Assembly (NCBI GenBank): GCA_002813105.2
Contig: CP017966.2
Location: forward strand, 186,001-250,000
Length of the DNA: 64,000 bases
Reading direction: 5' to 3'
Origin: Methanosarcinales archaeon Met12
Lineage (GTDB): Archaea > Halobacteriota > UBA148 > JAJOKI01
Below, piece by piece: positions 1,287 through 38,864 of the stretch (its first letter is position 1; every line of letters starts with the position of its first letter). Below the pieces are notes generated by a model. The model was not told the origin of the DNA. It did no database searches and was given only the letters and a program-made list of their open reading frames with translations. Made by a program: the position numbers and the translations under genes.

Positions 1287-1553
1287 TTACTGAGTGAACA
1301 TCCTAAAATGCGGTTTTCCAAACTCCTTTTCCTGCAAAAACCGCACGGCATCGCCGGCCTTGCGCTCGTCGTCAACGCGTGCATAAATCCGCATTTTAGA
1401 TACGAGCACCTTTTGTCCACAAGGGCATGCCCGCGTCTTCTGGCCTTCTTTGGCATCGAAAATATTTCTATGAAATATTTTCTTAAGAAGATATCCTTTG
1501 GATATCTTCGAAATAAATCGCCTGCAATCGCTGCACCTAATCACCAAATACAT
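1287..1553 (-). CDS. DUF1922 zinc-ribbon protein with a hairpin-encoded insertion
   Basis: About 88 residues. MYLVIRC at the start, CPCGQKV in the middle and the helix VDDERKAGDAVRFLQEKEFG match the small archaeal DUF1922 family (structure known for MTH1184), which carries a rubredoxin-like zinc site; its function is unknown. Family members run from the first cysteines almost directly into the second pair, but here about 18 residues (ISKGYLLKKIFHRNIFD region) intervene. They are encoded by two tandem DNA palindromes. The start chosen is the ATG that gives the family N-terminus; it overlaps the end of polB by 17 nt, so the two genes are coupled. Confidence 0.75.
   Translation of the reverse strand: MYLVIRCSDCRRFISKISKGYLLKKIFHRNIFDAKEGQKTRACPCGQKVLVSKMRIYARVDDERKAGDAVRFLQEKEFGKPHFRMFTQ
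1458..1509. repeat. Two tandem mini-palindromes inside the DUF1922 gene
   Basis: Positions 1458-1482 form an 11-bp perfect stem with loop TAT (GAAAATATTTC and its complement). Positions 1487-1509 form a 10-bp perfect stem with loop TTT (GAAGATATCC and its complement). Only four bases separate them. They keep the reading frame of the gene. The second stem is the same sequence, with one mismatch, as the hairpin at 31418-31440 downstream of tRNA-Tyr. Confidence 0.85.
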
Positions 1554-4044
1554 CAAACGTTGCCTGTTTTGGCCCCCCATTCAACTCGACGTCAGAATGC
1601 CCAAAGTGGTTAAGTATCCGTGATGTAGCGGGGATCAATTGATTATTGATATAATATTCTGCATCAATCCTATCTCTCTTATCATCATCAGTATATAGAT
1701 ATCCATCTTCATATTTTTTGAATATATCGACTGGATATGCTCTATCCCCGATGCTGCCGGATCCCTTGACTACCACGTACGCTACTTTCGTCCCTACCTC
1801 TATCGGTATTTTTGCCCTTTTTGCCGCCCTTACATGCGCCTGTATCGATTCATAGCTGGATATTTTTTTAGTCAAAGTTTTGTATATCACGAGCTTTTCC
1901 AAGGGTACTTTTCCCCTCTTGACCTGCTGCACGATGCTCTGGACCAATCGTACCGCTTTAGCCGGGTCCCTTTCCCCGAGTATCACTTCGACCACCTGGG
2001 CCTGGGTTTCCTTTGCCAGAGCACACCAATCCCCCCTGCGGACTTCCAGTCCCTTAATAACGATCTCGCCATCCGCGGTGAGGCCTGCGTAGCGCTTCTT
2101 CTTCTCGGTGAAGAATATCACTTCATAATAGTTATCGATGTCCAGTTCCAGGGGGAGTTCCCTGGATATGGCATCTGAAAACTCCTTTGCGAGTCTTACA
2201 ATATCTCCATCCTTTTTTATAAACAAACTATCGGTATCTCCGTACAGCACCTCAAGCCCCATTTCCTCGGCCTTCTGAATGGCCTGCTTGATAAAGTGGC
2301 GCCCCCATGCAGTGGTCGCCTCTGCGCATTCCTTACGGTACCAGCGGGCTGCAGACCAGCCAGTATACCCATAAAACGCATTAGTGAGTATCTTGATGGC
2401 TTTTTGGCGGATATCGAGCAATTGATATTCATATGTGTCCCTGTCGTATCTCGCAAGTTCGCGTTTCAATTTATTACGCTTGGCAACCAGGTCCTGAAGA
2501 ATCCGTTTGAAGAAACCGTCTGGCTTTTTCCGAAACTTATATCCAACCTCTGGCGCCTCAAAGAATTCATCGCCATCTGCTATTACAGTATCCGGCGATA
2601 TGTTGAATGATATCATTATCGATGGATACATCGCTGAAAAGTCCAGACATACCACGTTTTCATGTATGCCTTTTTTCGGTTCGAGAACGAAACCGCCAGC
2701 ATATGGCGCACCGACTTCCCTCTTAGAGGGCACCAGTTCTCCTATTTTATATGCCTCATTACTCAAAAACGATTCTACCTGGCGCCCACGTCCCATCTTT
2801 GATACCTCATCCAGCGGTTGCCTGCTCATTCTCGCGAATTCATATTGCAGCGGGAGCATCTTTTCCGCTATTGCGAGCGTACTATTTACATCATCTCTGG
2901 CATATTCGAGAAGGGTCTTGCGCTTTTCAGGGTCTTCCCAGTACTGATGTATCTTTGATGCAGGTAAATTGACGCGCTCGGATTTTTTCATTACGCCCAG
3001 AAAATCCGCAACGTTTTCCAGTGTCTTGACCTTGACACTGCCCAAGTCCCTGTCAACGACACGGTATAAATCGACGTTAAGTCTGCCAGCAATGGAGACT
3101 TTCCCAGGAATGCCAGGCCGAAGCTGTGGGGTACTTCCATCCCTCCCCATCTTGAGCGGAATTTTAGCAAGTTCTGCGCGGTGCAAGAGATACGGCCAAT
3201 CAAAGTTGTCCGAATTGTAACCGCATATCACGTCTGGATTAACATCACGTATAAAATCAATAAACTCTCTGATGATAGATGGTTCGTCCTTGGATGTAAG
3301 CAATTTAACGTCGCCACGATTCGTCGCCACTCCTATAATGATGATTGGATCGCGCTCCTGGCTCGGCATGCCATGGGGGTTTATCATCTCACAATCGAAC
3401 GCCATTATTCGTAGATCTGGGTTTCCCTCTCTCTTTTGCGGCTTAACCTCGCTCGCCTCAAGCGCATACTCTGCATACTCGATGTCGATCGGCTTTCCCT
3501 GCACGACGATGCCATCCATGGGCGCCAGACCATGATCGATGATATACCTCACCGCAAACAGCACATCTGCTTCCCTGACATCCAGACCAAGAGCATCAAC
3601 GGCTTCACGCAGACTTGGCACGTGCTGAGGATGCCCTACGATTATTTTAAAAGCCTCAACCTCTTTCCCAAAATCCCTCCTTTTGACGGTCTCAACTCGT
3701 TTTGGAGATATCGTCTCACCATATCGCATTGCCCTGACCGCCATAATATCGTCGGCACTTCTGTTTTCTGACCTAAATCTGTGGTTGGGAGCAGCCACCG
3801 CATAGAAATACGGCTCAAAGTTTGGGTCAAAAACGACCGCATTTCTCCCCTGCTCGTCCTTGCACCAGAGCCTGATTACAGCTTTACCTCCCTTATCGGA
3901 AATCGAAGATTTTCCGACTTGTTGTAATTCTGAAGGAATTTCAACACCGATTAAATCTGAAGATTTAGACGGAGTTGGCAATCCCTTTGGGATTTCAACA
4001 GTCACATAATCGACGTCGAGCAACCAGCCCCTGAGTTGATTCAT
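1537..4044 (-). CDS. polB: DNA polymerase, family B
   Basis: An 835-residue replicative-type polymerase with proofreading. Exonuclease motifs are Exo I FDCE (D217, E219), Exo II YNSDNFD (D282) and Exo III YARDD (D385). Polymerase motifs are A DFSAMYPS (D468), B KILTNAFYG (about 551-559) and C YGDTDS (D603, D605). The N-terminal strand RGWLLDVDYVTV should continue directly into GGKAVIRLWCKD as in other archaeal PolB proteins, but residues about 17-52 are an in-frame insertion. This insertion consists of two related repeats that both begin VEIP and is encoded by four DNA hairpins. All catalytic residues are intact, so the enzyme should work. The DUF1922 gene overlaps its 3' end. Confidence 0.96.
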   Translation of the reverse strand: MNQLRGWLLDVDYVTVEIPKGLPTPSKSSDLIGVEIPSELQQVGKSSISDKGGKAVIRLWCKDEQGRNAVVFDPNFEPYFYAVAAPNHRFRSENRSADDIMAVRAMRYGETISPKRVETVKRRDFGKEVEAFKIIVGHPQHVPSLREAVDALGLDVREADVLFAVRYIIDHGLAPMDGIVVQGKPIDIEYAEYALEASEVKPQKREGNPDLRIMAFDCEMINPHGMPSQERDPIIIIGVATNRGDVKLLTSKDEPSIIREFIDFIRDVNPDVICGYNSDNFDWPYLLHRAELAKIPLKMGRDGSTPQLRPGIPGKVSIAGRLNVDLYRVVDRDLGSVKVKTLENVADFLGVMKKSERVNLPASKIHQYWEDPEKRKTLLEYARDDVNSTLAIAEKMLPLQYEFARMSRQPLDEVSKMGRGRQVESFLSNEAYKIGELVPSKREVGAPYAGGFVLEPKKGIHENVVCLDFSAMYPSIMISFNISPDTVIADGDEFFEAPEVGYKFRKKPDGFFKRILQDLVAKRNKLKRELARYDRDTYEYQLLDIRQKAIKILTNAFYGYTGWSAARWYRKECAEATTAWGRHFIKQAIQKAEEMGLEVLYGDTDSLFIKKDGDIVRLAKEFSDAISRELPLELDIDNYYEVIFFTEKKKRYAGLTADGEIVIKGLEVRRGDWCALAKETQAQVVEVILGERDPAKAVRLVQSIVQQVKRGKVPLEKLVIYKTLTKKISSYESIQAHVRAAKRAKIPIEVGTKVAYVVVKGSGSIGDRAYPVDIFKKYEDGYLYTDDDKRDRIDAEYYINNQLIPATSRILNHFGHSDVELNGGPKQATFDVFGD
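3897..3999. repeat. Array of four mini-palindromes inside polB
   Basis: Four consecutive short inverted repeats: 3897-3916 (CGGAAATC, loop GAA, GATTTTCCG), 3922-3944 (TTGTAATTC, loop TGAAG), 3947-3972 (12-bp stem with two mismatches around TAAATCT, loop GA) and 3974-3999 (GTTG..AATCCC, loop TTT). The array is two copies of a two-hairpin unit of about 54 nt, which explains the two VEIP repeats in the protein. The third hairpin with its flank is nearly identical to the one at 38816-38842. Confidence 0.85.
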
Positions 4045-31160: not shown

Positions 31161-31375
31161 CCCGCCTTAACTCAGTCTGGTAGAGTGCGCGGCTGTAGTT
31201 TGATGGTGTTGAAATCCCTTCGGGCGAAGATGGTCTTTGATCATCTTCTGAAGAAAACACTTCTGCGAAGTGTTTTCGATTACAACTCTCCCAGTTCTTC
31301 GAACTGGGACATGTGCATGGCACGCATTACCGCGCAGATACCGCGATGTCCCCGGTTCGAATCCGGGAGGCGGGA
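31161..31375 (+). tRNA. tRNA-Tyr (anticodon GTA) with a 141-nt intron
   Basis: Acceptor CCCGCCT pairs with AGGCGGG and the discriminator is A. C1:G72 is the archaeal tRNA-Tyr identity pair. The D arm is ACTC..GAGT, anticodon stem CGCGG/CCGCG with loop C-T-GTA-G-A, T arm CCCGG TTCGAAT CCGGG. The exons are 31161-31198 and 31340-31375. At the junction CTGT pairs with GCAG, leaving 3-nt bulges AGT and ATA on opposite strands, a proper bulge-helix-bulge for the splicing endonuclease, cutting at position 37/38. Confidence 0.95.
31199..31339 (+). other. tRNA-Tyr intron filled with mini-palindromes
   Basis: The 141-nt intron, much longer than the usual 15-60 nt, contains three strong hairpins in a row: GAAGATGGTC-TTT-GATCATCTTC (9 of 10 pairs), GAAAACACTTC-TGC-GAAGTGTTTTC (11 of 11) and TCCCAGTTC-TTC-GAACTGGGA (9 of 9). 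A partial fourth, AATCCC-TTC-GGG, starts the series. No protein frame is likely. These belong to the same palindrome family as those in polB and the DUF1922 gene. Confidence 0.85.
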
Positions 31376-37803: not shown

Positions 37804-38836
37804 AAAAGTGGCGGTAATCAGAGGCGATGGAGTGGGGCCAGAACTCGTCGATGTGGCTATTGCCATCTTAGATGCTACCGGTTCAGATATCGAGTTGATC
37901 ATGTGCGATGCAGGCGCCGAATGGTGGGATAAACACGGTGGAGATTCGCTGATACCAGATGATACATGGAGCATACTTCAAGAGAGCGATTCATGTTTCA
38001 AGGGACCGACCACAACGCCAGGCGGGGCAGGGTCACCCAAGAGCGTGGCGGTTTCCATCCGCCAGAAGTTTGACCTGTATGCAAACGTCAGACCGATCAA
38101 AACATTTCAAAACACCCCGAAGCCGCTGGGCGATGTCGATTTTGTTTGCGTGCGAGAGGGGACCGAGGGGCTTTACAGCGGTTCTGAAACTCAGGTAGAT
38201 GAGGACACATACGTAGCGCATAGAATAATCACGAAATCCGCATGCAGAAGGATTGCCAGATATGCATTTGATGAGGCGACCCGCAGAAAGTGGGATACCG
38301 TGGTGGCAATTCACAAAAGCAACATACTAAAACTGACATGCGGGGCATTTTTAGAGGCGGTCAATGACGTAGGAAAAGAGTATCCAGACATTGAGATATG
38401 GGATTACCATGTCGATAATATGGCACAGCAACTCATCAAGAATCCGCAACTTTTCAACCAGAAGGTTCTATTGTCCACCAATATGTTTATGGATATACTC
38501 AGCGAGGAGTGTTCTGCCCTTGTTGGAAGCATTGGCCTGATTTATTCAGCGAATATCGGGGACTCCTATGCGATGTTCGAACCCGCGCATGGGTCAGCTC
38601 CCAAATACAAAGGCATGGATAGAGTAAATCCAACCGCAACCATACTCGCAGGTGCGTGGATGCTCGATTATATGGGAGAGAAAGATAAAGCCGATGCGAT
38701 CTTCAAGGCGACGGAAGAGGTAATTGCAGATGGCAAAAAGGTCACCTATGACCTTGGCGGAAACGCAAAACTCAGCGAGATGGCGGACGAAATCGCCAGG
38801 CGCATGGAATCGAAACCGACTAAATCGAAGATTTAG
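37796..38836 (+). CDS. Isocitrate/isopropylmalate dehydrogenase family enzyme, probably isocitrate dehydrogenase
   Basis: About 346 residues, NAD(P)-dependent beta-decarboxylating dehydrogenase. Motifs: [69 protein letters not shown] and the C-terminal [20 protein letters not shown]. The Ser-x5-Arg substrate loop and YANVRP favour isocitrate over isopropylmalate. A GTG start has GGAGGG 4 nt upstream and overlaps the small subunit gene. The last codons, P-T-K-S-K-I-stop, lie inside a mini-palindrome, so the element supplies the native C-terminus. Confidence 0.88.
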
Positions 38837-38864
38837 ACGGAGCCATAATTCTTCGAATTGTGGC
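38816..38864. repeat. Double mini-palindrome across the stop codon of the isocitrate-dehydrogenase-like gene
   Basis: First hairpin CCGACTAAATC-GAA-GATTTAGACGG (38816-38840), second GCCATAATTC-TTC-GAATTGTGGC (38842-38864, one mismatch). The stop TAG falls in the first. The first hairpin and its flank match polB 3947-3974 almost base for base (CCGAYTAAATC...GATTTAGACGGAG), while the second hairpins differ in sequence but keep the stem-loop. Confidence 0.88.

Follow-up and report, generated by a model that had tools for sequence, protein, structure and literature searches.

A hairpin insert in the DNA polymerase gene of the archaeon Met12 as a probable copy of a dispersed double-hairpin element

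The window analyzed here, a 64,000-nt stretch of the Met12 genome, contains the gene of a family B DNA polymerase (PolB; 835 aa; window positions 1537..4044, minus strand), which gives the only PF00136 match in this single-contig genome of 1,067,436 bp. Met12 is represented by a circular MAG, recovered at The Cedars, of a Methanocellales archaeon that is not a methanogen, and the main text of that report contains none of the terms 'repeat', 'palindrom', 'hairpin', or 'transpos' (PMC11176372). The N-terminus of Met12 PolB reads MNQLRGWLLDVDYVT-VEIPKGLPTPSKSSDLIGVEIPSELQQVGKSSISD-KGGKAVIRLWCKD, in which the 35 codons for VEIPKGLPTPSKSSDLIGVEIPSELQQVGKSSISD form a 105-nt in-frame hairpin insert (3896..4000, minus strand) between DYVT and KGGKAVIRLW. 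An earlier note on this DNA had claimed that the gene is interrupted in frame by four hairpins at 3897-3999; the predicted folds and the empty site in relatives confirmed the interruption, and its boundaries were refined to 3896-4000. The four hairpins, all read on the minus strand, are hairpin 1 (module A in a 26-nt variant, GTTGAAATCCC-AAA-GGGATTGCCAAC, 3974..3999), hairpin 2 (module B, CCGTCTAAATC-TTCA-GATTTAATCGG, 3947..3972), hairpin 3 (module A, GTTGAAATTCC-TTC-AGAATTACAAC, 3921..3945), and hairpin 4 (module D, GTCGGAAAATCTTCGATTTCCGA, 3896..3918). The folding energy of positions 3890-4005 as DNA was −23.2 kcal/mol compared with −10.1 ± 2.4 for shuffled sequences (z = −5.45; 0 of 200 shuffles equaled it), and the insert folded as RNA gave z = −4.26. 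Since the modules stand in the order A-B-A-D, the first hairpin is repeated and the second hairpins are of different types. Thus, the description of the insert as two copies of one two-hairpin unit holds for the hairpin whose translation starts with VEIP, which is duplicated, but not for the second hairpins, B and D, which differ.

The insert was absent from PolB of a genus-mate (89% identical) and of 27 further relatives reaching to other families of the phylum, in which the corresponding place reads DYITQEAKAVIRLW, DYVTKNGKAVIRLW, and similar sequences. Excision of the 105 nt (3896-4000) at the DNA level yields GTGAC|TAAGGGAGGT, that is, VTKGG, where relatives have VTKNG. In the comparison with PDB structures, the insert was placed just before residue 10 of KOD polymerase (ENGKPVIRVF), a site that we take to be the turn following the first strand of the N-terminal part. 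The alignment of relatives that the earlier note had proposed produced insert-less orthologues in all cases examined, and a homologous insert in distant PolB orthologues, which would have refuted that note's proposal, was looked for and was carried by none. Translation of the insert is inferred; there are no proteomic or transcript data, such as evidence for the peptide SSDLIGVEIPSELQQVGK.

A search of the Met12 genome with the DNA of the PolB insert found 26 other partial copies, and the merged Met12 matches of three covariance models occupied at least 42 sites. Together with the exact empty site in relatives, this dispersal upholds the view that a selfish-looking element lies in an essential enzyme; that it is selfish in the sense of giving the host no benefit remains an inference. 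The covariance model of the 51-nt unit described below matched 47 times in Met12, 19 times in its sister genome G001, and 12, 10, 7, 5, and 3 times in G008, G003, G007, G009, and G005, respectively; four other genomes of the order, G002, G004, G006, and G010, gave no matches. The family was thus observed in 7 of the 11 genomes of the order, and this model gave only weak matches beyond it. Among approximately 85,000 prokaryote genomes, the exact module A pattern occurred only in archaea labeled Methanocellales or Methanosarcinales and on one Mucilaginibacter contig. Module B was absent from IMG/VR, which was searched as a check of viral carriage. Replication template switching is able to generate palindromes as well as to correct them, and hairpins might accordingly have arisen as local quasi-palindromes without common ancestry. 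However, copies at unrelated loci agree in primary sequence, in module order, and in the 51-nt length, and no local process could distribute homologous modules across the genome. The dispersed homologous copies leave this explanation with very little probability.

The weak model matches outside the order (G016, G034, G050, and G028) resemble other hairpin families and were kept unmerged. In G028, which belongs to another family of the phylum, there were approximately 70 dispersed weak module B matches, and those that were read consist of a 26-nt hairpin, CCTTCCTAAATCTTTGATTTAGGTGGG. G016, G034, and G050, of one further family (f9), carry a different double-hairpin repeat of approximately 45 nt, several copies of which end in TTCGCAAATCTTTGATTTGCGAT; it may be a separate family built on the same plan.

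Module A has the form GTTGA-AATYCC-nnn-GGRATT-ACAAC with a conserved A·A mismatch, module B is CCGTCTAAATC-nnnn-GATTTAGTCGG with a T·T mismatch, module C is TCRCAGWTS-nnn-SAWCTGYGA, and module D, found also in the IleRS and TFB inserts, is GTCGGAAATC-TTC-GATTTCCGAC. When all A copies were aligned, C regularly followed A, the two together forming a double hairpin of constant length (51 nt) with TG at its start and CA at its end (CA terminus in 31 of 37 copies). Over 35 aligned copies and 19 base pairs, 98.3% of the pair cells were paired; compensatory double changes were observed in 94 cells compared with 25.6 expected by shuffling, both helices covaried, and the signal was lost when the partners were slid. 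These copies had been selected partly on pairing, so a second set was picked on hairpin 1 alone. In that set, hairpin 2 had 8 or 9 of its 9 pairs in 37 of 51 copies (random positions reach 7 or more of 9 with P = 0.0016), and most of the rest had a hairpin 2 split by an extra hairpin or carried a different module where C would stand. Judged from its modules, the PolB insert is a mosaic of related modules (A-B + A-D), the basic unit being the 51-nt double hairpin (A+C). The element alone is predicted to fold as two closed hairpins with unpaired ends. No known RNA family was recognized in it; the only Rfam match over the window was a tRNA-Asp. In addition, Met12 has three near-identical compound elements of approximately 110 nt (at 398858, 617915, and 966608), in which the outer arms CAACCTGC/GCAGGTTG surround three hairpins; their likeness suggests a larger version that spread recently.

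In-frame copies were found in about a dozen protein genes, including essential ones, and lengthen the products by 17 to 35 amino acids; at least 11 genes have empty orthologous sites. Empty sites were observed for the Met12 inserts in IMPDH (81 nt), IleRS (54 nt, reverse orientation), LeuRS (about 51 nt, reverse orientation), TiaS (102 nt, two units), an Endo_dU-family protein (51 nt), an uncharacterized protein (51 nt; 206-aa ORF, P206), and an asparagine-synthase-like protein (AsnB-like; 51 nt plus a small local change). The same held for the sister genome, in which CarB (34 aa), DUF362 (17 aa), and TRM1 (17 aa) carry inserts that relatives lack, and for a 303-aa protein in another family (f3). 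TFB has nearly the same insert in Met12 and the sister genome and none in other families, indicating that it was inherited. The element sequence was also present in the Met12 thymidylate kinase, a ThiS-family protein, and a HypA protein, whose orthologues were not aligned. Host genes were assigned to families with Pfam and NCBIfam. Exact excision from TG to CA gives back the ancestral residues, as in PLWG|FKK and GFD|VTE. A copy in a 682-aa secretion-ATPase-like ORF (931071) was not counted as intragenic, because the start of this ORF is uncertain and orthologues do not extend over that end. The sole apparent gene-breaking copy observed (G008:C28:2972-3022) lies out of frame in a transposase-like frame, assigned by eye without a Pfam match, and breakage there would do no harm.

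In conserved genes, all intragenic copies have lengths that are a multiple of 3, are free of stops, and use open phases only, in a search that favored open frames. Two of the six frames of 35 51-mers were nearly always closed (open in 2 and 4 of 35), and the other four were mostly open (19, 33, 31, and 29 of 35). Intragenic copies used two forward phases and the reverse orientation and never the closed phases, so they share no common peptide. This frame use is more consistent with selection acting after insertion than with a peptide that evolved as such, but the statistic is only supporting evidence because most copies were noticed through their open frames. The inserts could instead be host-adaptive, as domesticated regulatory or stability hairpins or as useful peptide loops under host selection, in line with the TFB insert having outlasted the divergence of Met12 from its sister and with the maintained base pairing. 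We consider this improbable: the host genes are unrelated, the differing phases and both orientations leave no common peptide, presence varies among species, and copies also occur between genes, at gene ends, and within introns. The neutrality of the inserts is likewise inferred.

Further copies were located at the 3′ ends of genes and in intergenic DNA. In the window, a 352-aa gene judged by eye to be dehydrogenase-like has a module B hairpin (38816..38840, minus strand) at its 3′ end, and this hairpin provides the C-terminal KPTKSKI and the stop codon; matches to orthologues stop just before it. Elsewhere in Met12, an element at 363406-363457 lies between a cas4-like gene, the C-terminus of which is replaced, and a cas1-like gene (both by eye). 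The window also contains a tRNA-Tyr(GTA) gene (31161..31375, plus strand; ARAGORN with introns allowed) with a 141-nt intron that holds a double-hairpin element (A...C; 31207..31311, plus strand), the first hairpin of which is split by further hairpins. Intron copies were found in tRNA-Tyr, tRNA-Ala, and tRNA-Lys of Met12 and in tRNA-Thr of the sister genome. The element-bearing introns were 84-295 nt long, and ARAGORN without the intron option missed these tRNA genes. One Met12 locus (L061) is an unclear tRNA with an element-bearing intron.

The clean insertion between ancestral codons and the copies within tRNA introns would both suit hairpins that are removed or skipped in expression, either through RNA splicing by the archaeal bulge-helix-bulge endonuclease or through ribosomal bypassing like that of mitochondrial byp elements, such that the proteins stay ancestral. 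However, removal would make it needless for copies to be stop-free, in open phases, and a multiple of 3 in length, although the search favored open frames, and two closed hairpins with unpaired ends form no exon-intron helix, although no dedicated bulge-helix-bulge scan was performed. Removal or skipping is therefore an unlikely account. The tRNA-intron location bears on the mechanism as a lead and not as evidence.

With regard to mobility, 30 of 37 copies had 0 nt in common between their flanks and the maximum was 4 nt; hence, there is no target-site duplication. Y1_Tnp (PF01797) had no match in Met12 and, within the genomes compared, matched only in G002, G007, and G008. DEDD_Tnp_IS110 had no match in Met12, and RVT_1 had none in any of the 11 genomes of the order, Met12 included. 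Y1 (RAYT/IS200), IS110, and reverse transcriptase were accordingly rejected as Met12 mobilizers. Because both hairpin arms change together, what is maintained is base pairing in single-stranded DNA or RNA; most likely, pairing is kept because propagation needs it, and its conservation suggests that the element passes through a single-stranded form, either DNA or RNA. All evidence for mobility comes from between-species comparisons; no transposition was directly observed, and active transposition is an inference.

In our assessment, the PolB insert is a composite copy of a non-autonomous double-hairpin element (51 nt, TG...CA) dispersed within one archaeal order, a reading to which we assign a probability of about 0.83. 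Under this proposal, copies would have inserted at many places in the genome. Those falling in tolerated open frames would have been retained and translated as 17-codon peptides or as two joined units (34-35 codons), and others would persist in intergenic DNA, tRNA introns, and the 3′ ends of genes, to which they may donate a new C-terminus and a stop. More tentatively, and with considerable doubt, the element could represent an undescribed class of archaeal mobile DNA: a 51-nt (17-codon) non-autonomous double hairpin with no recognizable host transposase or reverse transcriptase and no target duplication, resident in tRNA introns and housekeeping genes, that could propagate via RNA or single-stranded DNA, for example, spliced intron RNA.

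In-frame palindromic repeats are already known in Rickettsia and hairpin elements in mitochondria; here, the same strategy is seen in an archaeal chromosome, with the genes of the replicative polymerase, IleRS, LeuRS, TFB, IMPDH, and thymidylate kinase as hosts. This suggests that, in reduced genomes, new stretches of protein arise repeatedly from small hairpin elements. In the open-access literature, with most subscription journals outside its scope, no description of elements of this kind within protein-coding genes of archaea was found. The species pair with occupied and empty sites makes the tolerance of essential enzymes to random 17-residue inserts directly testable.

Like REP/BIME (RAYT) and IS200/IS605-derived elements, the archaeal element is a dispersed imperfect palindrome with a conserved mismatch and no target-site duplication; unlike them, it is a fixed hairpin pair, repeatedly intragenic, in a genome without a Y1_Tnp match. 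The enterobacterial units RU-1/2/3 are MITE-like small mobile repeats of 103-168 bp with open frames and intragenic copies (Delihas 2007, PMC2759123). The archaeal element resembles them in being small, putatively mobile, open-framed, and intragenic, but its unit is a double hairpin of only 51 nt, and it lacks the target-site duplications that, together with terminal inverted repeats, define MITEs. Rickettsia palindromic elements are small palindromic repeats that lie in frame in unrelated conserved genes, and outside genes, of a reduced genome (PMC10969869). The archaeal element is likewise in frame in unrelated conserved ORFs (at least 11 genes with empty orthologous sites), a likeness of behavior, as no Rickettsia element sequences were compared. 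It differs in that the Rickettsia elements are bacterial, about 150 bp long, and reported to have a conserved peptide, whereas the archaeal unit has 51 nt and no common peptide. The double-hairpin elements of Allomyces mitochondria (Paquin 2000, cited in PMC2800124) are adjacent hairpin pairs that are optional among related species, and an RNA intermediate was proposed there because they lack flanking duplications. The archaeal element shares the pair of adjacent hairpins as a unit, the optional presence, and the absence of flanking duplication. However, the Allomyces elements are fungal and mitochondrial, and the archaeal one resides in a chromosome, with no RVT_1 match in the 11 genomes; sequences were not compared. 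Since size and peptide set it apart from the Rickettsia elements, and host and compartment from those of Allomyces, it fits neither class. By analogy, it is best read as a putative archaeal mobile double-hairpin element, a counterpart of the Rickettsia palindromic elements and the fungal mitochondrial double-hairpin elements.
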